Source of the DNA: a virus
DNA length: 38,108 nt
Virus record (IMG/VR): IMGVR_UViG_3300045836_000130
Span: 1-38,108 of that record
Reading direction: 5' to 3' (one strand)
Both the position numbers and the translations under genes were made by a program. This document shows positions 8,216 to 38,108 of the stretch, piece by piece; the stretch's first letter is position 1, and the number at the start of each line of letters is the position of its first letter. The notes under the pieces were generated by a model. The model did no database searches. It had not been told where the DNA came from and was given only the letters and a program-made list of their open reading frames with translations.

Positions 8216-8216
8216 G

Positions 8217-15117: not shown

Positions 15118-15152
15118 TCGGTCTATTTCTTAATTGAAAGGCTAAGGAGACC

Positions 15153-15692
15153 ATGTTCTACGCACCGATTTCCAACCCTGCGCTGAAGAGAAGCATTCGG
15201 CCGATTTTCGCGCAGCACCAAGCGACCACCTGGCCGGGCTTTTTGGACCCGAACTGGAATCGCAGTTTCGACATCTATCCGGGCACCGTGATGTGCCGCC
15301 TGGAAAAGGAGATCTACACTCCTTACACCGGGGCGGGCAATCAGCGTCCGTTTGGCCTCTCGGCCTTCTTCGTCTCCCCGCAACTGGGGGTGGACGAGGT
15401 GACGGCCACCGGCACCAACCTGTTCACGGTATGGGTCGGCGGCGAGCAAGCGGTCTTTGAGATCCTGGCTCCCGGTTTCGACCAGACCGCGAACTGGACG
15501 GCGGCCAATGTCACCGATGGTGGCTACCAGCTGCTGACCGCCACCAACCAGGGTCTGCTGACTCCCACGGGTGTCACCGAGGCCAATGCCATCGCCGAGC
15601 TGATCGACGTGGAGTCCACCGACAAGATCCTGATCCGGATGAACCGCTTCGCCTTCGGCGGTGCGACGACTCCGACCCTGCCCACCCCGTAA
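15153..15692 (+). CDS. Capsid-associated (possibly decoration) protein, 179 aa
   Basis: ATG preceded by AAGGAGA. The product is beta-rich (TVMCRLEKEIYTPYTG, NLFTVWVGGEQAVFEIL) with a Pro/Thr end. It lies between the protease/scaffold gene and the major capsid gene, a common place for head decoration or stabilising proteins, and is separated from both by short leaders with strong SD sites, as expected for abundant products. No sequence family recognised, so the decoration role is positional inference. Confidence 0.7.
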   Translation: MFYAPISNPALKRSIRPIFAQHQATTWPGFLDPNWNRSFDIYPGTVMCRLEKEIYTPYTGAGNQRPFGLSAFFVSPQLGVDEVTATGTNLFTVWVGGEQAVFEILAPGFDQTANWTAANVTDGGYQLLTATNQGLLTPTGVTEANAIAELIDVESTDKILIRMNRFAFGGATTPTLPTP

Positions 15693-15714
15693 GAAAGCTA
15701 AGGAGACAACCACC

Positions 15715-16744: not shown

Positions 16745-16777
16745 AAGCCCCGTACCTCACAAGGGTGCGGGGCTTTT
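16745..16777 (+). terminator. Intrinsic terminator after the major capsid gene
   Basis: A 12-13-base stem (AAGCCCCGTACC paired with GGGTGCGGGGCTT, one G-U pair) with a six-base loop, ending in TTTT. It lies 22 bases after the capsid stop and ends the capsid transcription block before the endonuclease gene. Confidence 0.88.
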
Positions 16778-16857
16778 GCATGTCAAGATTAAGTATTGCC
16801 CGAATAACCAGTGCGTCCATAGGCCAACCCTTCCGTAATGAAAATGTTCAATCCTCG

Positions 16858-16873
16858 TGCTATACTGACCGCA
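16858..16873 (+). promoter_or_regulatory. Extended -10 promoter giving a leaderless endonuclease mRNA
   Basis: TGCTATACT (extended -10: TGn-TATACT, hexamer at 16861-16866) ends six bases before the ATG at 16873. A transcript from this -10 would start at or within a base or two of the ATG, and no Shine-Dalgarno sequence precedes the ATG. Leaderless mRNAs with this geometry are common in mycobacteria. No clear -35 is visible, as is usual for extended -10 promoters. Confidence 0.62.
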
Positions 16874-17871
16874 TGGCACCAGGGCTGAAACATCCACGAC
16901 GGGACGAGGGGCGAGAGCTATGGCTCCAAGGTCACTCGTTGAAGCATATTGCCGACATTCTCGGCGTCAGTGATCGTAGTGTGCGAGATTGGCGAGATCG
17001 AGATAAATGGCCTGAGCGAGATTACGAATTGCCTCAGCGATACTCAGATTCACGTCGTAAAAAAGCCGATGCTGAATTTGAGGCTGTAAAAGATGAGCTT
17101 GCCCAGGTATGGAAAGATTCCTTTCAGCCCAAGACTGTGGGGCGTACTAATGGCGTGATCATGCAAGGGTCTGCTCAGCGCGTAGCCGAGCATTTTGGTT
17201 GGTCCCCTAGTAAGGCCAACAAGTTCCTGAAGCGTGCAGGGTTGATGCAAGACAGACCCTCTAGTAAGAAGCAGGGCGAGGAGGCTATGCGGCTGTTTAA
17301 GTCTGGATGGTCGGTACCCAGAATTACCGAGCATCTGGAGGTCAACCAAGACTCTGTTCGTAACTGGCTGAAGGAGCGCGGTGTGGAGCTGTCTGCGGTC
17401 TCTCATACCACCCGGATGAGTCACGAGGAGAAGATGGCGTGGCGGCGCTCTATCAGCGCCGGGAAGGTCGCCTCTGTTGCTGGCTCTGGCCGTTTCAACT
17501 ACAACGGCCACCGCATGGACTCTACCTATGAGGTTAGGGTTGCGGCCGCGTGTGATCGTCTAAATATCCCGTGGCGGCTCTATGACCGTGCCGCTGACGG
17601 CGTGTTGGAGTATGAAGCCGAGGGCGGGGCGATTGTGCGCTACGCGCCCGACTTCTGGGTGATGGATCTGCCTGTTGAGGTCAAAGGAATTTTTGATGTG
17701 ACTGCACACACCAAGGTAACCAAGTGGCGTGAGCAGAAGGGTAAGCTGGCAATGATTATGAAGCAGGAACTACTTGATTTAGAGGATGCTCGCACACCGA
17801 GTGACGCCAACTCGATACTGGTGGCTGCCTGTTATCTAGACCCGCCGACAGACCCCGCGTATTGGGATTAG
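16873..17871 (+). CDS. PD-(D/E)XK endonuclease with N-terminal helix-turn-helix domains (homing-type), 332 aa
   Basis: ATG 16873 is chosen because of the promoter directly upstream; the frame is open earlier but would run into the terminator. Two helix-turn-helix segments are visible: residues ~18-45 (GHSLKHIADILGVSDRSVRDW) and ~140-170 (SGWSVPRITEHLEVNQDSVRNWL). The C-terminal part has the nuclease core: STYEVRVAAACDRLNIPW, then RYAPDF (Asp260) and, nine residues on, E269-V-K271, i.e. PD-(x)8-E-x-K. The combination resembles free-standing phage endonucleases that spread by cutting unoccupied sites. Lower GC and different codons (cga, gat, aaa) than neighbours, its own promoter, and insertion between terminator and next block all suggest a mobile gene. 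A DNA-binding regulator or a terminase-like protein is less likely. Confidence 0.75.
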   Translation: MAPGLKHPRRDEGRELWLQGHSLKHIADILGVSDRSVRDWRDRDKWPERDYELPQRYSDSRRKKADAEFEAVKDELAQVWKDSFQPKTVGRTNGVIMQGSAQRVAEHFGWSPSKANKFLKRAGLMQDRPSSKKQGEEAMRLFKSGWSVPRITEHLEVNQDSVRNWLKERGVELSAVSHTTRMSHEEKMAWRRSISAGKVASVAGSGRFNYNGHRMDSTYEVRVAAACDRLNIPWRLYDRAADGVLEYEAEGGAIVRYAPDFWVMDLPVEVKGIFDVTAHTKVTKWREQKGKLAMIMKQELLDLEDARTPSDANSILVAACYLDPPTDPAYWD

Positions 17872-18518: not shown

Positions 18519-19535
18519 GTGGGAGAACTCTCCAGAGACCTTGAAGGTCTTTTTGAGCTGTTGACCTCTCGCCACGAGCCCCCTTGGTGGGTCGGCGTGG
18601 TCCTAAAGAAACTCGATCACATCCAGATCAAACAGGAGAGAATCATGGCACTACAAGATGACTTGGCCAACCTGCTGAGCACCCTGCAGACCGACATCAG
18701 CAACTTAAGCAGTGGTCAGCTCGCGGATCAGACCACGATCACCAACCTGCAAAACCAGCTCGCCGACGCGCAAAGTCAGCTGTCGGCCGCCCAGGCCACC
18801 GCCGCCAGTGACGAGTCGCAGCTGCAGACGGCTCAGGGCGTGGTGACCCAGTTGCAACAGACGGTGACCGACCTGGGTAATCAGATCGCGCAGTTCACCC
18901 CGCAGACGCCACCTCCGGGTCCGACGCCCACCCCGGCACCTGCTCCGACACCGGCACCGACCGACCAGCCTCCGGCCCCGGCTCCCACTCCGGCTCCCGA
19001 CCAGCCGCCGACGCCCGCACCGACCCCGGCTCCCACTCCGACGCCTGCGCCTGCGGCGCTGCCCACCGTGACGGGGGTCAGTGCCCCGGCCGGTGGTGGT
19101 AACCCGGCAGGTGGTGACTCGGTGACGATCAGCGGCACCGGATTCACCGGAGCGGCGGCCGTGCAGTTCGGTCCCACTCCAGCCACTTCGTTCACCGTGG
19201 ATAGCGACACTTCCATTACTGCGACCTCTCCGGCGGGGTCGGGTGTCGTGGACATCACCGTGGTGACTGCCGATGGCACCTCGGCGGCGGTGCCGGAGGA
19301 CCAGTTCACCTACGCGGCCGCACCGGCCGCCCCCACCGGAGGTGACACCACCACGACCACCACCCCGACTCCGGTAGACCCCAACGCCGCCCCGGTGACG
19401 GCCGGATCGCTGCCGCAGGACACTCAGGTGGTCGAGGTTCCTGCTGACGTAACGCCAGTAGTGGTTCCGGCTGGCGCAGTGGCGGTGGCGGCTGGTAGCC
19501 TTCCTCCTGACGCAACGGTCACACCAGTTCAGTAA
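18519..19535 (+). CDS. Coiled-coil, Pro-rich, IPT/TIG-domain surface protein, 338 aa (or 296 aa from ATG 18645)
   Basis: The longest frame starts at GTG 18519. ATG 18645 (MALQDDLANLL) has AGGAGAGA five bases upstream and may be the real start. Domains: a coiled coil (residues ~45-125, heptads rich in Leu, Gln and Ala), a ~55-residue Pro/Thr/Ala linker of TPAPAPTPAP type, an IPT/TIG immunoglobulin-like domain (~185-265, VTGVSAPAGG, VTISGTGFTGAAAVQFG and TSPAGSGVVDITV), then a Thr/Pro/Val-rich tail. Coiled coil plus Ig-like domain fits a trimeric virion surface fibre or head decoration. A strong hairpin follows 17 bases after the stop. Specific role unknown. Confidence 0.72.
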   Translation: MGELSRDLEGLFELLTSRHEPPWWVGVVLKKLDHIQIKQERIMALQDDLANLLSTLQTDISNLSSGQLADQTTITNLQNQLADAQSQLSAAQATAASDESQLQTAQGVVTQLQQTVTDLGNQIAQFTPQTPPPGPTPTPAPAPTPAPTDQPPAPAPTPAPDQPPTPAPTPAPTPTPAPAALPTVTGVSAPAGGGNPAGGDSVTISGTGFTGAAAVQFGPTPATSFTVDSDTSITATSPAGSGVVDITVVTADGTSAAVPEDQFTYAAAPAAPTGGDTTTTTTPTPVDPNAAPVTAGSLPQDTQVVEVPADVTPVVVPAGAVAVAAGSLPPDATVTPVQ

Positions 19536-19607: not shown

Positions 19608-19703
19608 CGCATTGACAAAGGTTAAGATTCTCATCCAAAATGGGTAGTGTCAGCTAGCCAAGAAGTTGTGCTGGGGAGAGGCAACCCGAACGGAGGAGAA
19701 CAA

Positions 19704-19988
19704 GTGGCCATTGACATGACCGCTTCTTCACCGCTGTCTCCGAAGAAGCACAGTTTTCTGGTTACCTTGATCGATGCCGAGACCCTGGAAGAGGGGGTCA
19801 CCGTCGTGCAGGCGGTCTCGGCTGATGACGGCCTGCAGGAGTTCCTCCAGGGCATCGCCACCTATAGCGGTGGTCTGCTGGTGGGTCGCTCGCTGCAATC
19901 CGATGAGCGTTTTCTGATGTATCACCCGGTGATCGTGGACATTGATGCCGACGCGGCCGCCCACATTCCGCTGGTTGACCCCGTTTAA
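19704..19988 (+). CDS. Hypothetical protein, 94 aa
   Basis: GTG 19704 is chosen over GTG 19647 because GGAGGAGAA stands just before it. The product is a small alpha/beta protein (HSFLVTLIDAETLEEGVTVVQAVSADDGLQEFLQGI) with no Cys and no membrane segment. The layout (strand, strand, helix) could be a ferredoxin-like or ubiquitin-like fold. No family recognised. It lies alone between the long hairpin and a TATAAT promoter. Confidence 0.68.
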   Translation: MAIDMTASSPLSPKKHSFLVTLIDAETLEEGVTVVQAVSADDGLQEFLQGIATYSGGLLVGRSLQSDERFLMYHPVIVDIDADAAAHIPLVDPV

Positions 19989-20025
19989 TTAACTGTAGAT
20001 CCCGTCAATTAAAAGCGCCATGCCC

Positions 20026-20031
20026 TATAAT
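20026..20031 (+). promoter_or_regulatory. Sigma-70-type -10 box TATAAT
   Basis: A perfect TATAAT 42 bases before the ATG at 20068, in an AT-rich intergenic stretch of this GC-rich genome. The best -35 at 16-18 bases spacing is weak (GTCAAT or CCGTCA). A GGGGGAA Shine-Dalgarno lies between it and the gene. Confidence 0.5.
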
Positions 20032-20067
20032 GGGTGTGCAGCCGATGATTGGGGGAACTCTACTGCC

Positions 20068-20589
20068 ATGCCCTACCGCCGCCGCCAGCCCGAGATGGTG
20101 ACCTGGCATTCACAGCTGATCTTTTTGCTGATCGCGCTGTTCTGGGGACTGAGCTACCTGATGCCCCCGCACGGGCGCATCCCGTTTTCTGAGGTGTTCC
20201 CCGATACCATCGAGCGCGGTGTGGCCAAGGGGATGTGGATCTGGGGACTGCTATTGTTTACCCCGGCGCTGGTGGGGTTCATCGGAGACATGTTCCTGCG
20301 GTTCACCAGCTGGATATGGTCCTGGCACATGGCGCTCTGGGCGCACTTTCTGCTGACCGCCACTTACGCCAGCTTGACCGCGTGCGCGTTGTGGGAGGGC
20401 ATGGAGCAGGTCACCCGCTTCCCCTGGCCGTGGACGGTATCGGCAACCATCAGCGCCTTGTCGCGTCCGCTGCTGTGGGGCGGCATCACCTACGTGCACT
20501 GGACGTATGCCCGGCTGCCAGCCCCGGCCAAACCTGCTCCGGTCACCGAAAAGGAGCGAGAGTGGCCCACACCCTCTTCAACACATTGA
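20068..20589 (+). CDS. Membrane protein with about four transmembrane segments, 173 aa
   Basis: ATG 20068 (MPYRRRQPEM) has GGGGGAA about 12 bases upstream; the longer frame start at 20020 would precede the TATAAT box. Hydrophobic segments lie at about residues 16-33, 55-75, 84-107 and 118-140, many rich in Trp and Phe, with a basic N-terminus and a Pro/Lys-rich tail. Its end overlaps the start of the next small membrane-protein gene. A holin or a membrane anchor for assembly is possible, but no diagnostic motif is seen. Confidence 0.75.
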   Translation: MPYRRRQPEMVTWHSQLIFLLIALFWGLSYLMPPHGRIPFSEVFPDTIERGVAKGMWIWGLLLFTPALVGFIGDMFLRFTSWIWSWHMALWAHFLLTATYASLTACALWEGMEQVTRFPWPWTVSATISALSRPLLWGGITYVHWTYARLPAPAKPAPVTEKEREWPTPSSTH

Positions 20590-20744
20590 TCGTCTTCGGG
20601 CCGTTCAGTGCGATCCTGATTCTGCTGGGATTCATGCGCGCTGCGCGCATCCAGCGCGCCACTCCTCAGCCGTTGCCGACCGTGTGCCCGACCTGCAAGC
20701 GCCCGTTGAGCGCCCGGCTGGCTCAGCAGCTGATCGCGCGCTGA
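20562..20744 (+). CDS. Small membrane protein with CxxC, 60 aa
   Basis: GTG 20562 with AAGGAGCGAGA upstream, overlapping the previous gene by 28 bases; the longer start of the frame (20235) is rejected because it would lie entirely inside that gene. One transmembrane segment (~7-25, LIVFGPFSAILILLGFM), then a basic stretch and VCPTCKRP (Cys42, Cys45), which may bind metal on the inner face. Followed directly by bipartite element D. Confidence 0.7.
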   Translation: MAHTLFNTLIVFGPFSAILILLGFMRAARIQRATPQPLPTVCPTCKRPLSARLAQQLIAR

Positions 20745-20777
20745 CCTGTAGCTCATGGCTTCCTGCCCATCAATAGG
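20745..20777 (+). promoter_or_regulatory. Bipartite intergenic element, copy D
   Basis: CCTGTAGCT at 20745-20753 and AATAGG at 20772-20777, start-to-start 27, then TAGGAGG as Shine-Dalgarno and an ATG at 20793. TGACCTGTA begins at the stop codon of the upstream gene, as in copy B. Confidence 0.5.
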
Positions 20778-20792
20778 TAGGAGGTCGGAAGG

Positions 20793-21092
20793 ATGAGACT
20801 GCAGCTCGGTGTCCAACCCGCGCGCCCGGACGACGCCACCACCAAAGAGTACGTCGATGCCCTGCACACGATGGTCAACCGCGAGGTGCCCACCGGGGTG
20901 ATCGATGGGACCAATGCGGTGTTCACTTTGGCGCACACCCCCGAGCCGGGGACCGAGATGGTATTTATGAACGGGCTGGTGCAGCAGGCCGGGGCAGGTG
21001 ATGACTACACGATCTCCGGGCCGACGATCACCTTCCCGGTGGCTCCGCCACTTAACACCACGCTGTCGGTGACCTACTGGTATAACGCCTGA
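20793..21092 (+). CDS. Short fibre/appendage-associated protein, 99 aa
   Basis: ATG with AGGAGG and GGAAGG upstream. The N-terminus (LQLGVQPARPDDATTKEYVDAL) has the A-x-x-K-x-YVD helix seen at joints of phage fibre proteins, and the same pattern opens the 1830-aa protein downstream (LQLGGTPTRLQDAADKAYVD). The rest is a small beta domain (GTNAVFTLAHTPEPGTEMVFMNG, ending SVTYWYNA) common in phage tail and fibre proteins. The stop overlaps the next ATG by one base. It probably joins with, or attaches, the long fibre encoded next. Confidence 0.75.
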   Translation: MRLQLGVQPARPDDATTKEYVDALHTMVNREVPTGVIDGTNAVFTLAHTPEPGTEMVFMNGLVQQAGAGDDYTISGPTITFPVAPPLNTTLSVTYWYNA

Positions 21093-24000
21093 TGGCCCAG
21101 CTTCAGCTGGGGGGTACCCCGACCCGTCTGCAGGATGCCGCCGACAAGGCCTATGTCGATGTCATCTCGGGCAATCTCAGTCAGCTCACTCAGGATCTCT
21201 ACACCGGGCTACAGGGCACCGGCAGCGCCAGCAGCTCCAACGTCCAGATCCTGCTCAACAATTTCTTCGGGTCCTCGGGGTCGTGGCTGTCGATGGTGGC
21301 CAACCTGTTCGGGGCGGGTGGCAATTCGGCCACCGGCAAGGTGTTACCCAGCAGCGTGGGCAATGTGCTCGGCGGGGCGCATCTGGCGGCCGATCTGACC
21401 AACCTGATGGCTCCGTTCACCAGCATCGGGGCGCTAACCTCGATGACCGCCTGGCAACAGTGGCAAAGCGGGCTGATGAACCTGCTGGGGGCCACCACCA
21501 CCACCGTGGCCACTGGGGCGGCCACCCAGGTCCCCTCCACCAAGATCACCAACGTCTTGGGCGGGGGCAGCCTGGGTGCTGACGTGACCGCGTTGCTGTC
21601 CTCGGTCTTTGGTGGAGTAGGGGGCACCGGTACGGCCTCCACCAGCGCGCTCAACACCCAGCTGACCAACTTCATCACCAACCTGTTCGGTACTGGTAAC
21701 TCTCCGACCTCTTCCACTCTGCATATCGGGGTATTGCCCACCGGTATCCCGCAGTCCTACATCCAGGATCTGGAGACCGATCTCTCCAATGCGATCACCA
21801 CCGGCAATTGGAATCCTCTTCTGCAGGCGTTGTTTGGCACCACCACTTTCACGACTACCACCCCCATTCAGGTCAGCGCGGTGCCTACCGGGGTTCCGGC
21901 CGCCAACATCGCCAACATCTTCGGGGGAGCGACGCTCGGGGCTGATTTGACTAACTTGGCCAATGCGCTCTTTGGCAGCACGTCGGTCACTTCGACCAGC
22001 AAAGTTAGTAATACCAGCATTACTAACATCTTTGGTGGTGCAACGCTAGGTGCTGATCTCACCAATCTGGCCAATGCTCTTTTCGGTATCACAACAGTCA
22101 CCAATACCAGTAAGGTGAACGCCTCCAGCGTGGCCAACGTGTTGGGGGGAGCCAACCTGGGAGCCGACCTTACCTCGGTGAACGGGGCCACGGTTACCAA
22201 CGCCACCAACATCAACAGCACCTGGAGCTGGCTGTTTAACACCACTACCCCCACCAGCTCATCGCTGGTCAGTCCCACCAAGCTTTCCAATATCTTCGGG
22301 GGAGCCACTCTTAATGCCGATTTGACCAACTTGGCCAACGCGCTCTTTGGTATCACGTCGGTCACTTCGGCCAGCAAGGTCAAGAACACCAGTGTAGCCA
22401 ACATCTTTGGTGGCGCGACCCTCGGTGCCGACCTCACCAACCTCGCCAATGCCTTATTCGGCACCACGGCGGTGACCGCCACGATCAAGGCTCTGCCCAC
22501 TTCTATCGCCAATGTGCTCGGGGGGGCAAACCTCAGTGCCGACCTCACCTCGGTGAACACCACGGCTGTCAACGCGCTGCCGCAGCTCCTGTGGCAGACC
22601 GCCACCGGCAGCGGCACCAACCTGGTGATCAGCCCGCAGTTCGATGACTCGACGGTGGCTCGGGAGACGGCAAGCGCTGGGACCGGATCGGCATTCGGCT
22701 ACACCACCGCGCAAGCACGCAGCGGCACACAGTCCTACCGGATTCAGACCTCTACGCTTACCTCCGGCCAGTCCGATACGTTTTACCTGTCCTCCAACAC
22801 TCTGGGTGGTGGGGTTGCCAAGACCACGGCTTCAGCGCTGAAGGTTCAGTCAGGCCAGTGGTTCTACGGCGAGATCTATGTCCGGGCGGCAGCGGGCAAC
22901 ACCACCACAGCGGGCTCCATCAACCTGGAGATGACGCTGCATGACTCCACGGGGGTCAACGCGGCGCTCAATCACGCCATCGCCAGTGTGTCGATGTCGG
23001 GCTTGTCCAGTTCGGCGTGGACGAAACTCAGTGGCTGGTATCAGATTCCGGCCGGGTATGACCTGGCGTGGACCTTTGTCTGGACGCTCAACCAGAACGT
23101 GGCCACCCAGACGTTCTATTTCGATGACGTGCGCCTGGTCGAGGAGACTCTGGCCCAGGCGCTGACCCAGCAGCTGTTCGGTGGCAGCAGCATTTTGACT
23201 TCGATTTTGCCTGCGGCGGTGCCCAGTCTCGATACCTCCAAGATCACCACCGGCACCTTCCCCCAGTCAATGATCTCGGGACTGACCAGCGCACTGAATA
23301 CTCTGTTGCCCACCACCACCTACCAGTCGCTGGTGGACGCCCTGGCCAATGGACTGGGACATTCCGGAACCGGGCATACCTGGACCGACATCGAGACCTA
23401 TGTGGGCATCATCCCGCCCGCCAACATCACCAATGTCTTGGGTGGGGCCAACCTCGCCGCCGACCTGTCCTCGGTCAACACCACGACCAATACCAACACG
23501 ACTAATCTGTCTAATACGTGGTCGTGGCTGTTCAACACCACGACTCCGACCTCTAGTTCGCTGGTGCAGACCGCCAAACTCTCCAACATCTTCGGGGGAG
23601 CCACTCTCAGCGCCGATCTCACCAACTTGGCGAATGCTTTGTTCGGGGGGACGACTGTCACCAATACCAGTAAGGTTAATAATACTAGTATTGCCAACAT
23701 CTTTGGTGGTGCAACACTAGGAGCAGATCTTACCAACCTTGCCAATGCGCTCTTTGGTACTACTGCTGTTACTAATACCAGCAAGGTCAACAACACCAGT
23801 ATTGCCAATATCTTCGGAGGAGCAACGCTGGGGGCTGATCTCACTAATCTCGCTACTGCACTTTTCGGTGGGACCACGGTGACCGCGACCACCAAGGCGC
23901 TCCCCACCTCTATTGCCAATGTCTTGGGCGGAGCCAATCTCAGCGCGGATTTGTCTTCGGTCAACTCCACCACAAATACCAACACCACCAACCTGTCGAA

Positions 24001-26584
24001 CACTTGGAGCTGGCTGTTTAACACCACTACGCCCACCAGCTCATCGCTGGTGCAAACGGCCAAGCTGACCAATATCTTCGGCGGTGCGACGCTCAGCGCC
24101 GATCTTACCAATCTGGCTAATGCGCTCTTTGGCAGCACGTCAGTCACCAACACCAGTAAAGTAAACAATACCAGTATTGCCAACATCTTCGGTGGGGCCA
24201 CTCTCGGGGCTGATCTCACCAATCTGGCCAATGCGTTGTTCGGGACGACGGCCGTCACCGCCACCATCAAGGCGCTGCCGACTTCCATTGCCAACGTGTT
24301 GGGCGGAGCCAATCTTGGTGCCGACCTCAGCGCAGTGAACACCACGGCGACCACGAACACCGGCAACATCAACAACACGTGGTCGTGGCTGTTCGGCACG
24401 ACTTCGCCGACCAGTTCAACTCCCGTGCAGAACACCAAGATCGCCAACATCTTCGGGGGGTCCAACCTGGGTGCCGATCTCACCAATCTGGCCACCGCAC
24501 TTTTCGGGGCGACCACGGTCACCAGCACGACCAAGGCACTGCCGACCAGCATCGCCAATGTGCTCGGGGGAGCCAACCTGAGCGCTGATCTCAGTGCGGT
24601 GAACTCCACGACGAATACGAACGCGACCAACGTCAGCAATACCTGGAATTGGTTATTCGGGACCACCAGTCCCACCAGTTCAACTCCGGTCCAGAACACC
24701 AAAATCGCCAACGTGTTCGGCAACGCCAACCTCGCTGCCGATCTCTCCGCGCTGGCCACTGCGCTGGGGATGGGTGCCACGGTCACCAATACCAGCAAGG
24801 TGGCTCCGGCCAGTGTGGCTCAGGTGCTGGGGCAGGGCAGTCTCAGTGCTGACTTGACCGCATTGGGGAATCTGTTCTTTGGCTCACCCACCGTGGGCAC
24901 GGCGGTGCAGTCTTCGGCACTCCCTAATATCCCGGCGGGCAGCGGGCCGGGACAGTCCGGGGATCTACTCACCCACTTCAACGACATTGCCGCATTGGGT
25001 AACACCACGGCCACCACCGCGCTGGCCGCCGCGCGGGCCGCCTTGCAGATGCAAAGCAACACCCTGAGCTATGTCGCGTCTCAGATCCAGGGCCAACAGA
25101 CCAGCCAGACGGCTACCAACCTCTATGGGCAGGCCTACAACGTCTACTTCTACAACTATCCCGACACCGTGGCGGGAACCACCGGGCTGGCGGCCTTCGC
25201 TCAAGCGCCGTTCATCCTCAATCAAACCGGTGCGGGCAACGCCTATCTGTCGATCCTCAACGGCAACGCGCACTGGGTGAAGGCCACTAACAGTGCCGAC
25301 AACACCGTGGTGGGGATCTATGTCTGCGCCTATCTGGTCACCCTCAACGGTCCCCCCACCGGGGGCACCTTCACGATTTCCTACAACGGGACCGCCACCT
25401 CAGCCATCACCTACAACGCCACGGCGGCGACCGTGCAAAGTGCACTGCAGGCCATCGCGGGGATGCCCGCCAACAATGTCACCGTCACCGGCAATGCGGG
25501 CGGTCCCTACACCATCACCTTCATCGTCTGGCCGACCAGCGTCCTTACCGCCGCCTCGTCGCTCACCGGTACCGGAGCAGGTGTCGCGGTCAAGCCGCAG
25601 GGTTACACCAACACTGACTCCCAGAAGCTCTCGGCCACCATTGCCACGCTGCCCAGCGGGACCAATTCTCGCAACTACGCCATCGTGCGCTCCGATGCGA
25701 CCGGTCAGAACTTCACCTATGCAGGTGTCTATCTCAACTCCAGCAGCCAATTGTGCTGGGAGGTCGGCTATGTCGTTGGTGGTGTTGATCAGGGCATCAT
25801 CCCGGGATGGAGCGGAGTCAATGCCCCGTTGAGCTTCAGCTTTGAGTTACGTGCCGGGGTGGGTGGTAACTCACGCCGATTTCAGGGCGTGTCGGGCTCC
25901 CAGATCGTGTTCGACAAGATCGATACCGGCGCGGTCACGCCGCTGGGCGTCAACAACCGCTACTTCGGCTTCCGTTCGCAGACGGCCAGTTCCGGGGCCG
26001 CCACTCCGGCTGATGCCAGTTTTGTGGGATGTTCCGACAATGCGCTGCCGATCACCCAAGGTTCGGGCTTCCGGTTGTCGTGCTCCTCGACCACACAGCA
26101 GGCAATCAGTGTCGGCACCAACACCTCACCGCCCGGGGCGAACCCGGCCTGGGGATATTTCCCGGTCGGATTCTTCGACACCGCTACGAACATCACCGCC
26201 GACATGGTGCAAAGCAGCTGGAGCGGGCTCGACGCGATCACCGTGCTCACCGAGGGGAAATACCTGTTCAGCCTGCGCGCGCAGATGATGGCTACGGCTG
26301 CTACCGGGGTGGTATCGATCTACTGTGCCTATCTGCGCAATGGTGTCTTTGAGCAGATCGCCAATGGTCCTTCGGTGACGGTCAACGTGTTCTCCACCAC
26401 CTGGGCACCCACTGCGCTCGGCGGCACCGCTCCGGTGTACTGCAAGTCGGGCGATCAGATCGTGCCGATCATCTACGTGGACACCCAGCCGGGCACGGCC
26501 AACGCCTTGTCGTCGCTGAAGGTGTTTGGTGAGGCCAACCACCGGCTCACCTACTGGTCGCTTGATCGCATGTTCGGCACCTAA
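21092..26584 (+). CDS. Giant repeat-containing fibre protein, 1830 aa
   Basis: The N-terminus copies the LQLG...AYVD attachment motif of the previous gene. From about residue 75 to 1270 there are ~20 copies of a unit centred on I-F-G-G-A-T-L-G-A-D-L-T-N-L-A-N-A-L-F-G or the variant V-L-G-G-A-N-L-S-A-D-L, spaced by Thr/Ser/Asn-rich segments and NTWSWLFNTTTPTSSS. A ~190-residue beta-sandwich domain (~510-695), resembling carbohydrate-binding modules, splits the repeat array. After the array come a helical segment, a region containing the ~85-residue beta module (~1415-1500), a lectin-like region, and a C-terminal jelly-roll-like domain (from ~1650) typical of fibre tips. Likely a trimeric receptor-binding fibre or whisker. 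Domain limits are estimates. Confidence 0.78.
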   Translation: MAQLQLGGTPTRLQDAADKAYVDVISGNLSQLTQDLYTGLQGTGSASSSNVQILLNNFFGSSGSWLSMVANLFGAGGNSATGKVLPSSVGNVLGGAHLAADLTNLMAPFTSIGALTSMTAWQQWQSGLMNLLGATTTTVATGAATQVPSTKITNVLGGGSLGADVTALLSSVFGGVGGTGTASTSALNTQLTNFITNLFGTGNSPTSSTLHIGVLPTGIPQSYIQDLETDLSNAITTGNWNPLLQALFGTTTFTTTTPIQVSAVPTGVPAANIANIFGGATLGADLTNLANALFGSTSVTSTSKVSNTSITNIFGGATLGADLTNLANALFGITTVTNTSKVNASSVANVLGGANLGADLTSVNGATVTNATNINSTWSWLFNTTTPTSSSLVSPTKLSNIFGGATLNADLTNLANALFGITSVTSASKVKNTSVANIFGGATLGADLTNLANALFGTTAVTATIKALPTSIANVLGGANLSADLTSVNTTAVNALPQLLWQTATGSGTNLVISPQFDDSTVARETASAGTGSAFGYTTAQARSGTQSYRIQTSTLTSGQSDTFYLSSNTLGGGVAKTTASALKVQSGQWFYGEIYVRAAAGNTTTAGSINLEMTLHDSTGVNAALNHAIASVSMSGLSSSAWTKLSGWYQIPAGYDLAWTFVWTLNQNVATQTFYFDDVRLVEETLAQALTQQLFGGSSILTSILPAAVPSLDTSKITTGTFPQSMISGLTSALNTLLPTTTYQSLVDALANGLGHSGTGHTWTDIETYVGIIPPANITNVLGGANLAADLSSVNTTTNTNTTNLSNTWSWLFNTTTPTSSSLVQTAKLSNIFGGATLSADLTNLANALFGGTTVTNTSKVNNTSIANIFGGATLGADLTNLANALFGTTAVTNTSKVNNTSIANIFGGATLGADLTNLATALFGGTTVTATTKALPTSIANVLGGANLSADLSSVNSTTNTNTTNLSNTWSWLFNTTTPTSSSLVQTAKLTNIFGGATLSADLTNLANALFGSTSVTNTSKVNNTSIANIFGGATLGADLTNLANALFGTTAVTATIKALPTSIANVLGGANLGADLSAVNTTATTNTGNINNTWSWLFGTTSPTSSTPVQNTKIANIFGGSNLGADLTNLATALFGATTVTSTTKALPTSIANVLGGANLSADLSAVNSTTNTNATNVSNTWNWLFGTTSPTSSTPVQNTKIANVFGNANLAADLSALATALGMGATVTNTSKVAPASVAQVLGQGSLSADLTALGNLFFGSPTVGTAVQSSALPNIPAGSGPGQSGDLLTHFNDIAALGNTTATTALAAARAALQMQSNTLSYVASQIQGQQTSQTATNLYGQAYNVYFYNYPDTVAGTTGLAAFAQAPFILNQTGAGNAYLSILNGNAHWVKATNSADNTVVGIYVCAYLVTLNGPPTGGTFTISYNGTATSAITYNATAATVQSALQAIAGMPANNVTVTGNAGGPYTITFIVWPTSVLTAASSLTGTGAGVAVKPQGYTNTDSQKLSATIATLPSGTNSRNYAIVRSDATGQNFTYAGVYLNSSSQLCWEVGYVVGGVDQGIIPGWSGVNAPLSFSFELRAGVGGNSRRFQGVSGSQIVFDKIDTGAVTPLGVNNRYFGFRSQTASSGAATPADASFVGCSDNALPITQGSGFRLSCSSTTQQAISVGTNTSPPGANPAWGYFPVGFFDTATNITADMVQSSWSGLDAITVLTEGKYLFSLRAQMMATAATGVVSIYCAYLRNGVFEQIANGPSVTVNVFSTTWAPTALGGTAPVYCKSGDQIVPIIYVDTQPGTANALSSLKVFGEANHRLTYWSLDRMFGT
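21340..24900 (+). repeat. Array of about 20 peptide repeats within the giant fibre gene
   Basis: Units of roughly 37 codons, type 1 with IFGGATLGADLTNLANALFG and type 2 with VLGGANLSADLSSVN, arranged in a higher-order order of one type 2 followed by one to three type 1. The array is interrupted at about 22620-23170 by the beta-sandwich domain. Nearly identical peptides use different synonymous codons from copy to copy; the copies at about 23660-23860 are clearly AT-richer. Confidence 0.85.
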
Positions 26585-26609
26585 GAAAGAGGCAAGAAAG
26601 GATATTGGT

Positions 26610-26849
26610 ATGCCTGAGGACAATGGCACCGCAAGTGGTAATGATGAGCTGGCGCAGGCACGTGCCGAGGCGCACTTCTGGCGCAGTCAGTACCTGGAGC
26701 AACACGCGCACTACAGCAAGACCATTGCGGCACTGAGTGCCCCCACGATGCTGGAGAGTGCCCTACGCCAGATGATGGCCAATCAATCGGCCCCGGCGGC
26801 CGCTCCTGAGGAGAACGGCAGCGCGGTGGACTCCTCCGTGAGCGGCTGA
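26610..26849 (+). CDS. Small helical protein, 79 aa
   Basis: ATG 26610 (MPEDNGTASG) with AAAGGA upstream; the longer frame start (26526) overlaps the fibre gene. A central helix (ELAQARAEAHFWRSQYLEQHAHYSKTIAAL) could be a coiled coil, followed by a Met/Ala segment and an acidic Ser-rich tail. It sits 18 bases before the PPE gene, where mycobacterial genomes usually have the PE partner, but it lacks the PE N-terminal pattern. It may be a chaperone or partner of a neighbour; unproven. Confidence 0.7.
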   Translation: MPEDNGTASGNDELAQARAEAHFWRSQYLEQHAHYSKTIAALSAPTMLESALRQMMANQSAPAAAPEENGSAVDSSVSG

Positions 26850-26867
26850 CCCATGCGGGGATAGACA

Positions 26868-27965
26868 ATGGCGGCCTGGGGAGGAGTGCCGCCCGAGATC
26901 ATCTCGGGACAGCTCTACGCGGGGCCTGGGTCGGGGGGACTGCGGGAGGCGGCAGCGGCCTGGGCAGAACTGGCCGGGGAACTGGAGGCGGCAGCGCGCG
27001 ACTATCAGACGGTATTGACCGGGATTGTTCAGGCCTGGCAAGGGCCTTCGGCTACGGCCATGGCCACGGCGGTGACTCCCTATATCGCTTGGTTGCAGAG
27101 CACTGCCGAGCAAGCTCGTCTAACCGGGGTAAGTGCGGCGGCGGCCGCCAGTAGTTACGAGACAGCCCTGGCCGCAGCGGTTCCTCCGCCGACCATCGCT
27201 GCCAACCGCTCATTACTCCTCCAACTGATTACTACCAACATTCTTGGTCAGTATACAGGACTAATTGCTGCCCTGGAAGCTCAGTATGCCCAAATGTGGG
27301 CTCAAGACACTGCCACGATGAACACTTACGAGGTCTCTTCTTTAAGCGCTATCGCACAGCTACCTGCTCTTCAGCCTGCGCCGCAGGTCGCTAATTTAAC
27401 AGCTAACCCGGCAGCCGTCATCCCAGCACAGGTTACTCCCATCGACCTGATCAACGCGATCCTGACACTGCTCGGATTGGACGGCAGCTCGCCGCTGTCG
27501 CTGCTGACTTATTCACTCATCCAGGGCCTGGGCACATTGCCCGTGGACATCCTGGGGTTGTTCACCAGTTTATTGGGCCCCATCGCGGGAGCCTCGATGA
27601 TCGCCAACCAGATCGGTATTCAGAACTCGATCATCGCCGCCAAGCCCAGTGCGCCGATGGCGGTCTATCCGCCCACCGAATCCAAAGCTGTCCCCACTGT
27701 CAAGGCCAGTGCGGGGACAGCCCCCCGGCTGGGACCGATGCGGGTGCCGCCGAGCTGGGCCCAGCCTCAGTCTCCCCAGGCGGCTACTGCGCTGCCTGCT
27801 TCCCAGGGGGGTGAGAAAGAGGAGGTCCCGATTGGGTTGCCGGTGATTCCTGCGGTTCCTGTCACAGGCGGCAAGGGTGGTCAGAAGAAGGGGACCAAGT
27901 TTGAGGATATGGATTATGGCCGCCCGATGCCTCCGATATTGAACCGTCATCCCTCCGGTGGATAG
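26868..27965 (+). CDS. PPE family protein, 365 aa
   Basis: The first ~165 residues are a complete PPE domain: GGVPPEI with Pro8-Pro9-Glu10, YAGPGSG, AAAAWAELAGEL, the W-x-G turn at Trp57-Gln-Gly59 (QAWQGPSATAM), PYIAWLQ, and the helix-tip region TNILGQYTGLIAALEAQY followed by MWAQDTATM. In mycobacteria such proteins pair with PE proteins and are exported by ESX systems; the tip after the helices binds EspG chaperones. The C-terminal half carries GPMRVPPSW (residues 289-297), close to the GxxSVPxxW hallmark of the PPE-SVP subgroup, then a Lys/Gly-rich end unlike host proteins. It lies between fibre genes on the same strand with GGGGA upstream. A virion component or exported envelope-modifying protein acquired from the host are both possible. 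Confidence 0.9.
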   Translation: MAAWGGVPPEIISGQLYAGPGSGGLREAAAAWAELAGELEAAARDYQTVLTGIVQAWQGPSATAMATAVTPYIAWLQSTAEQARLTGVSAAAAASSYETALAAAVPPPTIAANRSLLLQLITTNILGQYTGLIAALEAQYAQMWAQDTATMNTYEVSSLSAIAQLPALQPAPQVANLTANPAAVIPAQVTPIDLINAILTLLGLDGSSPLSLLTYSLIQGLGTLPVDILGLFTSLLGPIAGASMIANQIGIQNSIIAAKPSAPMAVYPPTESKAVPTVKASAGTAPRLGPMRVPPSWAQPQSPQAATALPASQGGEKEEVPIGLPVIPAVPVTGGKGGQKKGTKFEDMDYGRPMPPILNRHPSGG

Positions 27966-27973
27966 GTGATCTG

Positions 27974-27991
27974 TTGGCCCAGCGCGGCCAA
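27974..27991 (+). promoter_or_regulatory. Perfect small hairpin after the PPE gene
   Basis: TTGGCC-CAGCGC-GGCCAA, a six-base perfect stem with a six-base loop, eight bases after the PPE stop and followed by ATAGATGAGG. No T run follows. It may be a weak terminator or mRNA stabiliser. Confidence 0.35.
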
Positions 27992-28040
27992 TAGATGAGG
28001 AGACTACCCCCTGAACGTCTCCCTGAGGAAAGGCTGTCGC

Positions 28041-29221: not shown

Positions 29222-30169
29222 ATGAGCATGCCGATCATCCCGCCGTTCGCCATCAAGGCCTCCTACCAGAACTCGCAGTTCGGGGGTGGCTCGATCTACA
29301 CCCCGGGAGTACCCAGTGTGTTCGCTCACCTGGTCACTCCACCCACCTCGGGCACCGACGCGGAGAATGCGGCGATTGCCAACGCCGAGGCCAAGGGCTT
29401 CGCTGGCTACAGCGCGGCCAATGAGGTCATCGTGGTCACGGTGGTCGGCGCACCGACCGGCGGCACGTTCACGCTGCTCTTCGGGGATGATGAGACCACT
29501 CCGATTGCCTACAACGCTTCGGCGGCCACGGTGGCCTCGGCGGTCAACGCGCTGCCGTCTATCGGAGTGGGCACCGGGGGCACCAACGAGGTGCAGACCG
29601 TCACCGTCACCGGGGCTCCCACGGGCGGCACGTTCACGCTGACCTACTCTGGACAGACCACCGGCCCGATTGCCTACAACGCCACCGCTGCGGCGGTGCA
29701 GACCGCGTTGACGGGACTGTCGAACGTCGGTACCGGCAATGTGGCGGTGACCGGTGCCAGTGGAGGTCCTTACACGGTGACCTTCCAGGGCACGCTGGCC
29801 GACACCGATGTGGCGCAGATGACCGCTACCGCCTCGCTGACCGGCGGCACCACTCCGGGTGTCACGGTGGCTACCCAGACCGCCGGGGTGGCGCGCACCC
29901 CCAACGTGGCGGCCAGCGGCTCGGCAGGGGGTCCCTACACCTTGACCTTCAGTGGACAGCTGGCCGACGAGGCCCTGGAGGGCTTCTCCGCCGATGGTTC
30001 GGGGCTGACCGGCGGCACCGATCCTGGCGTCACTGTGGCGATCACCACGCTGGGGACCGGTGCGTTCGTCAACGAGCCCAAGGCCAACGTCACCCGTCAG
30101 TTCGACCCGCTGGTGAACTTCTACGACAGCGCGTCCAACAACTTCGGCCAGTGGGATGTCACTGCGTAA
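29222..30169 (+). CDS. Structural protein with paralogue N-terminus and nested beta modules, 315 aa (paralogue set member 3)
   Basis: ATG with GTAGGAGA upstream. The N-terminus (ASYQNSQFGGGSIYTPGVPSVFAHLVTPPTSG) is the third copy of the small-protein pattern of the two genes upstream. It continues into a ~85-residue beta module beginning V-x-G-A-P-T-G-G-T-F-T-L and containing IAYNATAAAVQ, GGPYTVTF and SLTGGTTPGV. One complete module (about 29591-29890) is flanked by the first half of a second module (about 29425-29590) and its second half (about 29900-30060). The end (REFDPLVNF-like, KANVTRQFDPLVNFYDS) is unique. Likely a virion surface or fibre-related protein. Confidence 0.75.
   Translation: MSMPIIPPFAIKASYQNSQFGGGSIYTPGVPSVFAHLVTPPTSGTDAENAAIANAEAKGFAGYSAANEVIVVTVVGAPTGGTFTLLFGDDETTPIAYNASAATVASAVNALPSIGVGTGGTNEVQTVTVTGAPTGGTFTLTYSGQTTGPIAYNATAAAVQTALTGLSNVGTGNVAVTGASGGPYTVTFQGTLADTDVAQMTATASLTGGTTPGVTVATQTAGVARTPNVAASGSAGGPYTLTFSGQLADEALEGFSADGSGLTGGTDPGVTVAITTLGTGAFVNEPKANVTRQFDPLVNFYDSASNNFGQWDVTA
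29425..30060 (+). repeat. Beta module inserted within another copy of itself
   Basis: The first half-module ends near SIGVGTGG; the complete module follows; then the chain resumes with NVAASGSAGGPYTLTF, which matches the second half of the complete module. Further modules lie at about 25336-25590 in the 1830-aa gene and 30448-30730 and 30745-31005 in the 958-aa gene. Confidence 0.7.
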
Positions 30170-30212: not shown

Positions 30213-33089
30213 TTGGGCACCAATTACCCGGGTGGAATCGATGCTTTTAACGTCCCTGGTGATCCCCAGGATGTTCCGCTCTCCGAGGCGGGCACGTCCA
30301 CCCGTAACCATGTGCAGTCGCATGCCGATCTGGGCGCGGCCGTTACTGCGCTGGAGCAAAACGCCGCTCAACTCTCTCATGATCATTCCGGGTCAATTGG
30401 CGTCTCTATCGGGGTAACCCAGCCCAACCCGGGCACGCTGGCAGTCAACGACCTGCAGACGGTCACGATCATCGGCACGCCCAGCTCAGGCACGTTCAAT
30501 CTGACCGTCAACGATCAGACCACGGTAGCCATCGCCTACAACGCCACCGCTGCTGCCGTGCAGGCCGCCCTGGTCACGATCCTGGGTACCGGCAATGTGT
30601 CGGTCTCTGGCCCCAATGGTGGCCCCTGGGCAGTCACTTTCATCGGGGCTCTGGCCGATACTGCGGTCCCCACGATGAGCGCACAGTCCTCGCTGATCGG
30701 GGGCAGCGTCAACGTCACCCACACCACGGTGGGTACGGCGGGTACGGCCAGCGTCCAGGTCATCGCGTTCTCCACCACTCCGTCCTCGGGGACCTTCACC
30801 CTGTCTTTCGGCGGCCAGACCACCGCTGCGCTGCCGTTTGACGCCTCATCCACCACGGTGGAAAACGCGCTGACCGGACTGTCCTCCATCGGGGCCAACA
30901 ACGTCAGCGTGACCGGGGATGGCCCGTATACGGTGACCTTCCAGAATGCGCTGGCCACCACCCCCCAGCCGCTGATCACCGCCGTGTCCAGTCTGTCCTC
31001 GGGGTTGTTCGCCACCGGCAAGCTTAAGCAGGTCAACACTCACCAGAGTCCCGATACCGACACCTCCACCTCGGCGCTGCACCACACCATCGGCCCTGGC
31101 CCCACCCAGGCGGCGGCCGGGAACCACACCCACGACTACAACGGGCCGACGATCACCAACAAGCCCTACGTCATCTGCACCTCCTCCACCCGGCCGGTGC
31201 CCACTGAGATCGGGATGAAGATCTGGGAGACCGACACCGCCCGGGAGCGGGTGTGGGCGGCCTTCCCCAACAACGTCTTGCAGACCGGCACCAGCTTCAC
31301 CGACACGTTCAACCGGGTTTCGGGGATCGCGGCATTCAGCGCACAGGCCACCTCCAGCCTCTCGGGAGGCAACAACGGTTCGGCGGTGATCACCTTCGGA
31401 GCCAACGACACCGCACTGCTGGTGGGGCTGACCAACTACAGCAGTTCGGCTCCCTGGCATTCCGGCTGGGCCACCACGGTCACCGTCGCCGGGCATCAGC
31501 TCACTCAGCTGGGTGTGATGGACTGCCTGGGCAGTCTCACCGGGTTTCTTACCGTGTTCGGGCTGATCTTGCCGCCGGGGCTGGCGGGGACCGAGCAGAC
31601 CATCAACGTCAACGTCACCAACGGCTCGGACACCGCTGATCTGGTGATCGTGGCCAACAGCTACACCAATGTCGGGGCGTTCGGTCAGGTGGTCACCAAT
31701 GCCGGGGCGCTGGGATTCGGTTTCCCGGTCAATCTTCCTTCGTCTCCCGGGGATTTGGTGGTGGGCTTCTTCGCCGGAGGGCAGGGTGCGCTCTCTGCCC
31801 CCACCGGGGGTGCTCAGCGGTCCTACCTCTATCCCGGCAACCCGTTCGTGTCACTGCTGGTTCAGGACTCCCAAGGAGCGATTCAGACTCCTGCCAATCC
31901 GGCCACCGTGTTGGGGGTGACCTCCACCGCGCTGACCAACGCCAGCATCGGGGTCAACCTGATCCCCGCCTCCTCGGGCCTGGGCACCAATTACAACCAG
32001 GCCTATGTGGTCGGCTCCACTCCGGCCTGCGGGTTGATGGGGGTGCCGTCCTCCGGTGCGGCCAGCTGGTTGGTGGGTCAGAATGTCCCCGGGCGCTGCA
32101 TTGCCCACAGCGTGGCCCCGGGAGCCTCCACCACGGTGGCTGACGACCAGGACTTCACGTTCACCACCGGGTCGGCGATGCCCACGTTGTTCAGCAGCCA
32201 AAGCCCCACCGTGGATCTCTATGCGCGGATGAGTGCTGATGGCAACTCCTATGTGCGCCTGGCGCTGACCTATGGCGGTGCCCAGCTGTGGTATAGCCGC
32301 ACCGGCCCGACCGGTGAGCAGCCCCTGGGCAGCGTGTCCACCGGCACCCAGTCTCCCAACATCGAGTGGGAGTACAAGATCACCGGCAACACCTTCACTC
32401 TCTACCGAGGCGGAGTGTCGGTGATGAACATCGTGGACGACCAGAACCTGGCGGCCAGCGGTCCCAGTAACCGGGGCTGGGCCCTGGGCATGTCGGCCAT
32501 CGCGGGCCCCACTGCCCAGATCCCCCCGGCCACGCTGACCCAGCTGACCGTCAACGATCTGCCGATCTATGGCACCCAGCCGATCTGGCAGCTGACCAAC
32601 GGCGGGTCGGTGCCCCATGTGCTGGCCGAGACTCACGTGGGCCAGCAGGTCGCGGTCAACAGCGTGGTGGCGGCCTTCTTCGACACGATCCTAGAAGACC
32701 TGTGGGGGTATTTTGGGCACGGTTCCATCGGGGTGCAGACCACTGTCCCGCAGACCACCGGGATCACGATCACCGAGGCCGGGAACTACGACCTGCATGC
32801 CTCGGTGCCCTGGGACCCCTCCTACTACGGGTTCGACTGGGCCAGGATTGGGTTCACCGTCAACGGCCAGGACATCGGTCGCAACAAGATGCAGTTCATG
32901 GTCGGCAACGGCACCGCCCCGGGTTTTGCCCAGACTCTGGAGATCTTCGCCAGCTGGCACTTCGCCGCCGGAGACGTACTGCGGGTGGTGGTCAGTCATA
33001 ACTCCTCCACCGCCGCGTGGCTGTTCTACAACCCCAGCTCGCCTACCTCGCAGACGGCATGGGTCGATGTGAAATTTACGGGGCCGTAG
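30213..33089 (+). CDS. Fibre/appendage protein with beta modules and C-terminal jelly-roll-like tip, 958 aa
   Basis: TTG start directly after GAGGAGGGG; no other start with an SD is near. After an N-terminal segment (PGGIDAFNVPGDPQDVPLSEAGTSTRNHVQSHADLGAAVTALE), which is a common phage fibre attachment pattern, come two ~85-residue beta modules (about residues 79-173 and 178-265). Then a link with DTSTSALHHTIGPG, beta domains (~365-580 and ~615-780, the latter lectin-like with DLYARMSADGNSYVRLAL), and a C-terminal domain (~800-958) resembling C1q/TNF jelly rolls (ITEAGNYDLHASVPWD). Likely a second fibre or baseplate-attached receptor-binding protein, sharing its modules with the neighbouring genes. 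Domain limits are estimates. Confidence 0.75.
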   Translation: MGTNYPGGIDAFNVPGDPQDVPLSEAGTSTRNHVQSHADLGAAVTALEQNAAQLSHDHSGSIGVSIGVTQPNPGTLAVNDLQTVTIIGTPSSGTFNLTVNDQTTVAIAYNATAAAVQAALVTILGTGNVSVSGPNGGPWAVTFIGALADTAVPTMSAQSSLIGGSVNVTHTTVGTAGTASVQVIAFSTTPSSGTFTLSFGGQTTAALPFDASSTTVENALTGLSSIGANNVSVTGDGPYTVTFQNALATTPQPLITAVSSLSSGLFATGKLKQVNTHQSPDTDTSTSALHHTIGPGPTQAAAGNHTHDYNGPTITNKPYVICTSSTRPVPTEIGMKIWETDTARERVWAAFPNNVLQTGTSFTDTFNRVSGIAAFSAQATSSLSGGNNGSAVITFGANDTALLVGLTNYSSSAPWHSGWATTVTVAGHQLTQLGVMDCLGSLTGFLTVFGLILPPGLAGTEQTINVNVTNGSDTADLVIVANSYTNVGAFGQVVTNAGALGFGFPVNLPSSPGDLVVGFFAGGQGALSAPTGGAQRSYLYPGNPFVSLLVQDSQGAIQTPANPATVLGVTSTALTNASIGVNLIPASSGLGTNYNQAYVVGSTPACGLMGVPSSGAASWLVGQNVPGRCIAHSVAPGASTTVADDQDFTFTTGSAMPTLFSSQSPTVDLYARMSADGNSYVRLALTYGGAQLWYSRTGPTGEQPLGSVSTGTQSPNIEWEYKITGNTFTLYRGGVSVMNIVDDQNLAASGPSNRGWALGMSAIAGPTAQIPPATLTQLTVNDLPIYGTQPIWQLTNGGSVPHVLAETHVGQQVAVNSVVAAFFDTILEDLWGYFGHGSIGVQTTVPQTTGITITEAGNYDLHASVPWDPSYYGFDWARIGFTVNGQDIGRNKMQFMVGNGTAPGFAQTLEIFASWHFAAGDVLRVVVSHNSSTAAWLFYNPSSPTSQTAWVDVKFTGP

Positions 33090-36973: not shown

Positions 36974-37045
36974 GTGGGTTTGAGGTTGCTCCCCCCTGAC
37001 TCTGTTGACGTTTCTCTCAACACTATCAAAGGAGGGGTATTGTGA
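36974..37045 (+). CDS. Possible 23-aa ORF coupled to the sheath gene
   Basis: GTG 36974 preceded by TAGGAGG, and its TGA (37043-37045) overlaps the sheath GTG as GTGA. The peptide (VGLRLLPPDSVDVSLNTIKG, then GVL) has no known domain. Either a tiny gene or a translated leader that helps load ribosomes on the sheath gene, whose own SD (AAGGAGGGG) is inside it. Confidence 0.45.
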   Translation: MGLRLLPPDSVDVSLNTIKGGVL

Positions 37046-38108
37046 GCACTCCCTTAGACTTTTCGCACTATAACCCACCTGGTGTTTATACCGATGCTCT
37101 TCCGGGCCCTCAATTAGCTGTCAATAGCAATATCCCCTATGCGGTGGGGATTATCGGTCAGGCGTCTGGATTTATGAACTATATCCAGACTGTTCAGATC
37201 AACCCGGACACCAACGAGACCACCCCATCGCCGACTCAGACGCTGGCCAAGTCCGGGATCAACACCGCCACGCTGACGGTGCAAAACCCCAACTCGCTGG
37301 CTCCCTACACGCTCAACACCGACTACACGCTGGATCTGGTGGCGGGCACCTCGGGCACCTCTTCGGCGCAGTACGCGATCAAGCGAGTGATCGGCGGCCA
37401 CATCAACCCCGGGGATTACATCCAGGTCTCCTATCAGTACACCGACGCCACCTACTACGCTCCGCGCAATTTCTACACCTACACCGACATGGTGAAGGCC
37501 TATGGCGAGCCGTTCAACACCGTCACCGGCACGATCTCCTCGGGCATTTCTCTGATGGGTCAGTTCGCCTTTGAGAACGGGGCCTATCTGGTGGTGGCGT
37601 GCGCGGTGGAGTCCACCAACGGCCCCGGCAACGCCAGCGTGGGCGACTACACCAACACCTTGGCCCAGCTGACCGACAACCCGCTGGTGGCGGTCGTGGT
37701 CACCGACTCCGGAGCGCAGCCGCTGCACCAGTTCGTTCAGCAGCACGTCGATCAGCAGTCCTCCAACCGCCACGAGCGCCGGGCCATCGTGGGCCTGGAC
37801 GGCACTTCGGTGCCGGTACCTTCTTCTCAGCGCATCATCGACGCACAGGCCATCACCGACCAGCGGGTAATGCTGGTGAGCCCGGCCACCTTCAAGCACT
37901 TCTCCCCGGAGCTATCCACCACGGTTACCCTGGGCGGGCAGTACATCGCGGCGTGTCTGGCCGGGATCACCGTGCGCCAGGGCTTTGAGATGCCGCTGAC
38001 CCGCAAGAGGCTCACGGGCTGGACCGACATTGGCGAGGTGGAGCCCGAGGGCCAAAAGAACCTGGAGTCCGAGAACGGGCTGTGTGTGGTGGAAAAGACC
38101 GCCACCGG
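37042..38108 (+). CDS. Contractile tail sheath protein (3' end outside window)
   Basis: GTG 37042 with AAGGAGGGG upstream; the frame stays open to the window edge (355 codons). The N-terminus (FSHYNPPGVYTDAL) and the first domain (VNSNIPYAVGIIGQASG) are typical of phage tail sheaths; the later GQYIAACLAGITVRQGFEMPLTRKRLTGW fits the conserved sheath AG-x-x-A...PLT-x-K-x-L-x-G region. Sheath subunits wrap the inner tube and contract to drive it through the cell envelope; hence a myovirus morphology. It is the last gene of a chain of overlapping genes. Confidence 0.88.
   Translation, partial: MSTPLDFSHYNPPGVYTDALPGPQLAVNSNIPYAVGIIGQASGFMNYIQTVQINPDTNETTPSPTQTLAKSGINTATLTVQNPNSLAPYTLNTDYTLDLVAGTSGTSSAQYAIKRVIGGHINPGDYIQVSYQYTDATYYAPRNFYTYTDMVKAYGEPFNTVTGTISSGISLMGQFAFENGAYLVVACAVESTNGPGNASVGDYTNTLAQLTDNPLVAVVVTDSGAQPLHQFVQQHVDQQSSNRHERRAIVGLDGTSVPVPSSQRIIDAQAITDQRVMLVSPATFKHFSPELSTTVTLGGQYIAACLAGITVRQGFEMPLTRKRLTGWTDIGEVEPEGQKNLESENGLCVVEKTAT

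Follow-up and report, generated by a model that had tools for sequence, protein, structure and literature searches.

The PPE family has been presented as one that only mycobacteria have (for example in PMC12607722). EspG chaperones bind a hydrophobic tip of the PPE protein, and the EspG-binding domain sets which ESX system is used (PMC5311947). PPE substrates of ESX-5 were located in the outer membrane in a system reconstituted in M. smegmatis, a species that lacks ESX-5 (PMC10597459), and PPE51 alters permeability in M. marinum (PMC12607722). Phages have been linked to PPE proteins and to ESX before. Fan et al. (2014) give MAV_0790 as a PPE family protein in phiMAV_1, a prophage of M. avium 104, in one sentence (PMC3986857). 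The PEST cassettes of M. abscessus prophages, which consist of a WXG100 effector, a polymorphic toxin and an immunity gene beside integration functions, apparently use host type VII secretion, and their N-terminal domains resemble PE/PPE pairs in structure (PMC10654092). Here we describe a PPE gene in a linear virus record of 38,108 bases (IMG/VR record IMGVR_UViG_3300045836_000130; the whole stretch is referred to as the window), together with the phage-borne PPE proteins with which it groups.

The gene occupies positions 26868 to 27965 of the window on the plus strand, starts with ATG and forms a single open frame encoding 365 amino acids. Pfam and a six-frame family search confirm what a first-pass annotation, made from the letters alone, had proposed, namely that it encodes a complete PPE protein. 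Every motif listed there is present (PPE at residues 8-10, W57-Q-G59, MWAQD at 143-147 and GPMRVPPSW at 289-297). The PPE domain (PF00823) spans residues 4-166 (26877 to 27365) with an E-value of 4.2e-56 and 189.9 bits against a cut-off of 26, covering profile positions 2-165 of 165, and the six-frame search of the whole record returned one PPE match only, the same open reading frame (ORF). A sequence search against solved structures found PPE15 (E 4e-35), PPE41 and PPE4. The AlphaFold2 model has the expected long helical PPE domain, with a block-mean predicted local distance difference test score of 76-96 over residues 1-160 and poor confidence past residue ~165; its top Foldseek matches are again PPE15, PPE41 and PPE4, with template modelling scores, normalised to the target, of 0.83-0.89.

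The C-terminal region (residues 280-365, 27705 to 27962, ending NRHPSGG) is of the PPE-SVP type by both Pfam and alignment. The PPE-SVP family (PF12484), which the annotation had suspected from its motif, matches residues 280-337, a narrow pass at 25.3 bits against a cut-off of 23; in some other phage PPE proteins the score falls under the cut-off. The GxxSVPxxW region of the family reads GPMRVPPSW in the window protein. Over the last ~90 residues the alignment follows host PPE-SVP C-termini in the same order, with a GxMxVPPxW segment, a proline-rich link and then YGRPMPPILNRHPSGG in the window protein aligned against YGFRPTVMARPPAAG in host PPE-SVP proteins, and free divergence is confined to residues ~170-260.

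PPE genes were found in 11 further phage or prophage lineages of mycobacteria, making 12 with the window. Among 396 Mycobacterium genomes the best full-length matches are prophage genes, two in genome G124 (L063 and L064) and one in G276 (L100), with a lower-scoring prophage match in G206 (L101), and profile-guided scans of uncultured and prophage contigs yielded L051-L062, L115, L116 and L118. Pfam confirms PPE for every phage or prophage relative tested. The phage proteins, at 335-372 amino acids, are shorter than those with which they were compared (median 397). Sampled host PPE proteins reach at most about 58% identity to the window protein over a long stretch. In the close phage pair L053/L056 synonymous change exceeds non-synonymous change (ratio 0.49); the same ratio for distant pairs is near saturation and was left unused.

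No match was found in 50,697 records of cultured phages with either the window PPE or the PPE consensus. The search itself was functional, since the same protein finds 40 plasmid records; the lack of matches may be because collections isolated on M. smegmatis poorly cover slow-growing hosts that bear ESX-5. Some candidate phage PPE genes were set aside. L002/L060/L113 (35% identity) has an EspB-like gene and a prolyl oligopeptidase as neighbours, apparently in the host flank of a prophage, and falls with the comparison proteins in trees; the record of L061 includes a PE gene, and this candidate clusters with host proteins.

Full-length trees place the PPE genes of the 12 phage lineages in a phage-borne branch of PPE-SVP type proteins. 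With 8 phage rows and 26 SVP-type rows, the phage rows lie on one side of a branch with support 98/98. With 12 phage and 47 SVP-type rows, the latter including the nearest host proteins by phage-profile score, they stay apart with a Shimodaira-Hasegawa-like approximate likelihood ratio test (SH-aLRT) value of 99, in a tree from a short search without bootstrap. One very divergent host row, which pulled the window to the root, was excluded, and the place of the window protein inside the phage group is not fixed by the tree. The label 'phage' was given from genomic context, except for the G206 prophage, which was added after its C-terminal ending had been seen. The phage rows also share marks at the C-terminus, in patterns picked after inspecting the sequences: the ending P[SAF]GG is found in 9 of 12 phage rows versus 3 of 47 others, and R[PA][EQ]PEYG in 5 of 12 versus none of 47. 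The C-terminus had been annotated as phage-specific; this holds for the marks at its end, whereas the region as a whole is a PPE-SVP type tail. The comparison with host PPE genes that the annotation had called for thus separates the phage proteins from the 47 others, and the isolated capture of a host gene, which it had considered, is at odds with a window protein that groups with 11 other phage PPE proteins.

Features that bear on export were retained across the branch. The pair of residues aligned to PPE41 124-125, in the putative EspG-binding tip, is hydrophobic in all 12 phage proteins and is I125-L126 in the window protein (27240 to 27245). Residues 105-133 form the best conserved stretch of the phage proteins, and equally of the comparison set. 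All three bacterial genomes with PPE prophages encode EspG5, matching the protein of M. tuberculosis with E-values no higher than 1e-157. The annotation had left a choice between use and sabotage of ESX or EspG; use fits the conserved tip and the EspG5 genes best, and sabotage is weighed below.

A search of the 38 kb record found no PE domain, and the PPE gene indeed has no PE neighbour. As phage records are mostly without PE, a PE protein of the host would have to be borrowed. The ORF of 79 amino acids that separates the PPE gene from the tail gene (26610 to 26849, plus strand) was considered as a hidden PE protein and rejected: it belongs to no known family, has no PE-like sequence match and, in a single-sequence model, forms one long helix and a short one, unlike the PE hairpin. 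A search for a WXG100 partner in the window gave only a weak echo on the PPE protein itself, and Pfam found no toxin domain in that protein. In L101, the G206 prophage, a PE_PGRS gene (7508-8230, minus strand; PF00934 E 6e-27, with PGRS repeats) lies between tail and lysis genes on the opposite strand to, and beside, a phage-type PPE gene; it is the sole phage record here with both a PE gene and a PPE gene of the phage branch.

In most of these phages the PPE gene is found close to LysA or LysB genes, on the lysis side of the late genes. In L066, L067, L069, L116 and the G124 prophages it follows LysA, LysB and small holin-like genes and is usually the last late gene, and in L115 and L101 it is also near lysis genes. 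In L065, L102 and L118 its neighbours are tail genes on one side and a phrog_19005 gene on the other. L068/L100 and the window are exceptions to the lysis-side position. Gene calls in the loci of the relatives are simple ORF picks, with PHROG and Pfam checks for named genes only, and 'holin-like' refers to size and place, without a family match. The phrog_19005 gene, of unknown function, recurs in the neighbourhood of the PPE and lysis genes in most of the phages that carry a PPE gene (L058 7030-7929, L118 9114-9908, L052 1057-2007, L063 14009-14758 and L116 2521-3339). The G124 prophage L063 encodes a phospholipase D-like protein (15025-15573, minus strand; PF13091) in its late operon, adjoining the phrog_19005 and lysis genes. 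Its LysB-like lysis protein (11297-12451, minus strand; phrog_102) also matches PF08237, the PE-PPE hydrolase domain, which some PE and PPE proteins carry as an enzymatic part.

Building on the protein's family and fold, its phage lineage, the place of its gene, the conserved EspG tip and the EspG5 of three hosts, all described above, we suggest that the phage PPE protein is exported to the envelope through the host ESX system and brings the phage some benefit there, a reading to which we give a probability of about 0.5 and which leaves lysis and exclusion open as the benefit. The protein would be made in the host cytosol, late in infection or in lysogeny, and would pair with a host PE protein; the chaperone EspG5 would keep it soluble by way of the conserved hydrophobic tip, and ESX-5 would export it. 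It might then lodge in the mycomembrane and alter the envelope to the advantage of the phage. We infer this path because ESX-5 PPE proteins reach the outer membrane (PMC10597459) and PPE51 affects permeability (PMC12607722). The benefit might be that the outer membrane is weakened or opened alongside LysA, LysB and the holin, or that rival phages are blocked; these options are favoured because the PPE gene sits on the lysis side. A more specific proposal, that the phage-specific branch is exported by type VII secretion and opens or remodels the outer membrane with LysB and the holin, which would make type VII secretion part of mycobacteriophage lysis, is tentative and on balance doubtful.

Several observations weigh against export to the envelope as the explanation for the window gene. 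This gene lies among structural genes, and none of the lysis genes seen in the fragment is near it. Neither the window nor most other phage records hold a PE gene (none in 9 of the 10 searched). The window protein forms a long branch in the trees, and its N-terminal domain by itself carries too little signal to place it or to resolve the phage clade, although the approximately unbiased test does not reject the clade (p 0.08 with L059, 0.38 without). In addition, cultured relatives of the window phage infect M. smegmatis, which has no ESX-5 (PMC10597459).

The window itself belongs, by the sequences of its genes, to a Bixzunavirus-like myovirus. Its major capsid protein (15661 to 16722, plus strand, as are the tail, phrog_2784 and tail-sheath genes below) is ~85% identical to those of Bixzunavirus phages, 73% to that of Phrappuccino and 90% to that of L038, a metagenomic relative. 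Portal, capsid and tail-sheath genes come in the same order as in ET08 and Phrappuccino; the tail-sheath homologue (37042 to 38106), identified by homology and synteny, is cut by the end of the record. The region from capsid to tail sheath is variable between the window and its relatives. In L038 and Phrappuccino the homologue of the conserved phage gene 28041 to 28649 (phrog_2784), which in the window lies 3' of the PPE gene, comes immediately after that of ORF 19647-19988. Gene-level synteny shows that the block of ~8 kb between these two genes in the window (19989 to 28040, plus strand) is absent at this place in both relatives; it holds a minor tail protein of 1830 amino acids (21092 to 26584; DUF7257, phrog_746/737), small ORFs and the PPE gene. 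No PPE gene was found in the record of L038, in Phrappuccino or in ET08, and a search of viral contigs with the terminal part of the upstream tail protein gave no relatives. The PPE gene was annotated as part of the phage structural cluster, and it does lie between the capsid and tail-sheath genes, after the minor tail gene.

Other features of the window include a common segment of ~80 amino acids in several tail proteins, encoded at 21092-26584 (at residues ~1415-1493 of the 1830-residue tail protein), 29222-30169, 30213-33089 and 37042-38106, which is related to part of the tail-sheath and major tail families phrog_2839 and phrog_10909. Directly after the capsid gene, positions 16765-17871 encode a protein of 368 amino acids, possibly a homing-type element, in which a terminase-like helix-turn-helix is accompanied by a weak match to HNH endonucleases. 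Between the capsid gene and the inserted block, positions 18519-19535 encode a protein of 338 amino acids whose N-terminal part is coiled-coil-like and which also has an IPT/TIG domain.

The EspG tip kept in all 12 phage proteins, and the PE gene usually missing from phage records, would also suit a saboteur that ties up EspG5, PE proteins of the host or the ESX-5 channel and thereby makes export of host PPE proteins and envelope upkeep falter. A precedent exists in that a PPE protein rerouted to ESX-5 reduced secretion of the cell's own ESX-5 substrates (PMC5311947). A decoy would have no need of the PPE-SVP C-terminal region, yet this is recognisable in several phage PPE proteins, and a late position near the lysis genes leaves little time for an effect; we consider sabotage unlikely. 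Lysogenic conversion, by which a PPE protein expressed from the prophage would serve the lysogen (nutrient uptake, surface change or host interaction) and play no part in lysis, draws on the G124 prophages, where the PPE gene adjoins the attachment end and integrase region, and on L100, where the end of the prophage is close by. In M. abscessus, the ESX-secreted toxins that prophages encode are expressed during lysogeny (PMC10654092), and PPE proteins take part in nutrient uptake (PMC12607722). In several phages, however, the PPE gene is embedded in the late operon with no obvious separate promoter region. Cultured Bixzunavirus relatives are generally regarded as lytic, although Phrappuccino has repressor and excisionase genes. 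Such conversion is, in our judgement, improbable.

Its place in the window between capsid and tail-sheath genes, and that in L053-L058 and L118 within a few bases of tail-region genes, might point to the PPE protein as a minor tail or baseplate component, perhaps aiding the particle at the mycobacterial surface. In many phages, by contrast, the gene comes after the lysis cassette and closes the late operon; the window protein matches no PHROG family, tail families included, and conservation of the EspG tip would be left unexplained. The virion role or surface mimicry considered in the first-pass annotation found no positive evidence beyond the position among structural genes, and we regard it as quite unlikely. 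Hosts carry many PPE genes (9-47 matches in each genome tested), and the window gene has a GC content at third codon positions of 0.67, below most neighbours, as might be expected of an assembly chimera or a recent accidental capture of a functionless host PPE gene. This is largely refuted and very improbable: no sampled host PPE protein comes closer than the identity given above, the best full-length matches are prophage genes, the window protein groups with other phage PPE proteins in trees, and phage genes flank it on both sides in one operon.

These results add a phage branch to a family described as exclusive to mycobacteria, and link mycobacteriophage biology to type VII secretion. They suggest that phages send proteins of their own out through the type VII secretion machine of the host, and that phages with such PPE genes infect slow-growing mycobacteria bearing ESX-5. 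The role of PPE proteins in the outer membrane is an open question, for which the phage branch offers a small, removable system suited to tests of PPE function, partner choice and outer-membrane effects.

In PPE domain, fold, hydrophobic EspG tip and C-terminal type, the window protein resembles mycobacterial PPE-SVP proteins, which are ESX-5 substrates; the nearest solved PPE protein is PPE15, in complex with PE8 and EspG5 (5xfs). It differs from them in belonging to a separate, phage-encoded branch of shorter proteins with distinct C-terminal endings, usually without a PE gene. The presence of a PPE gene within a mycobacterial prophage is not new, having been known since 2014 from MAV_0790, which was mentioned without lineage, position or mechanism (PMC3986857); neither the conserved phage lineage nor its place on the lysis side appears to have been described in the openly licensed literature. 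The window gene is not a PEST cassette, being a true PPE gene in a late gene region with no partner and no toxin domain. In phage lambda, lom and bor encode outer-membrane proteins beside the tail-fibre and lysis genes. The likeness is one of gene position only, with sequence and export route unrelated, and by position the phage PPE gene would be the mycobacterial counterpart of lom and bor.
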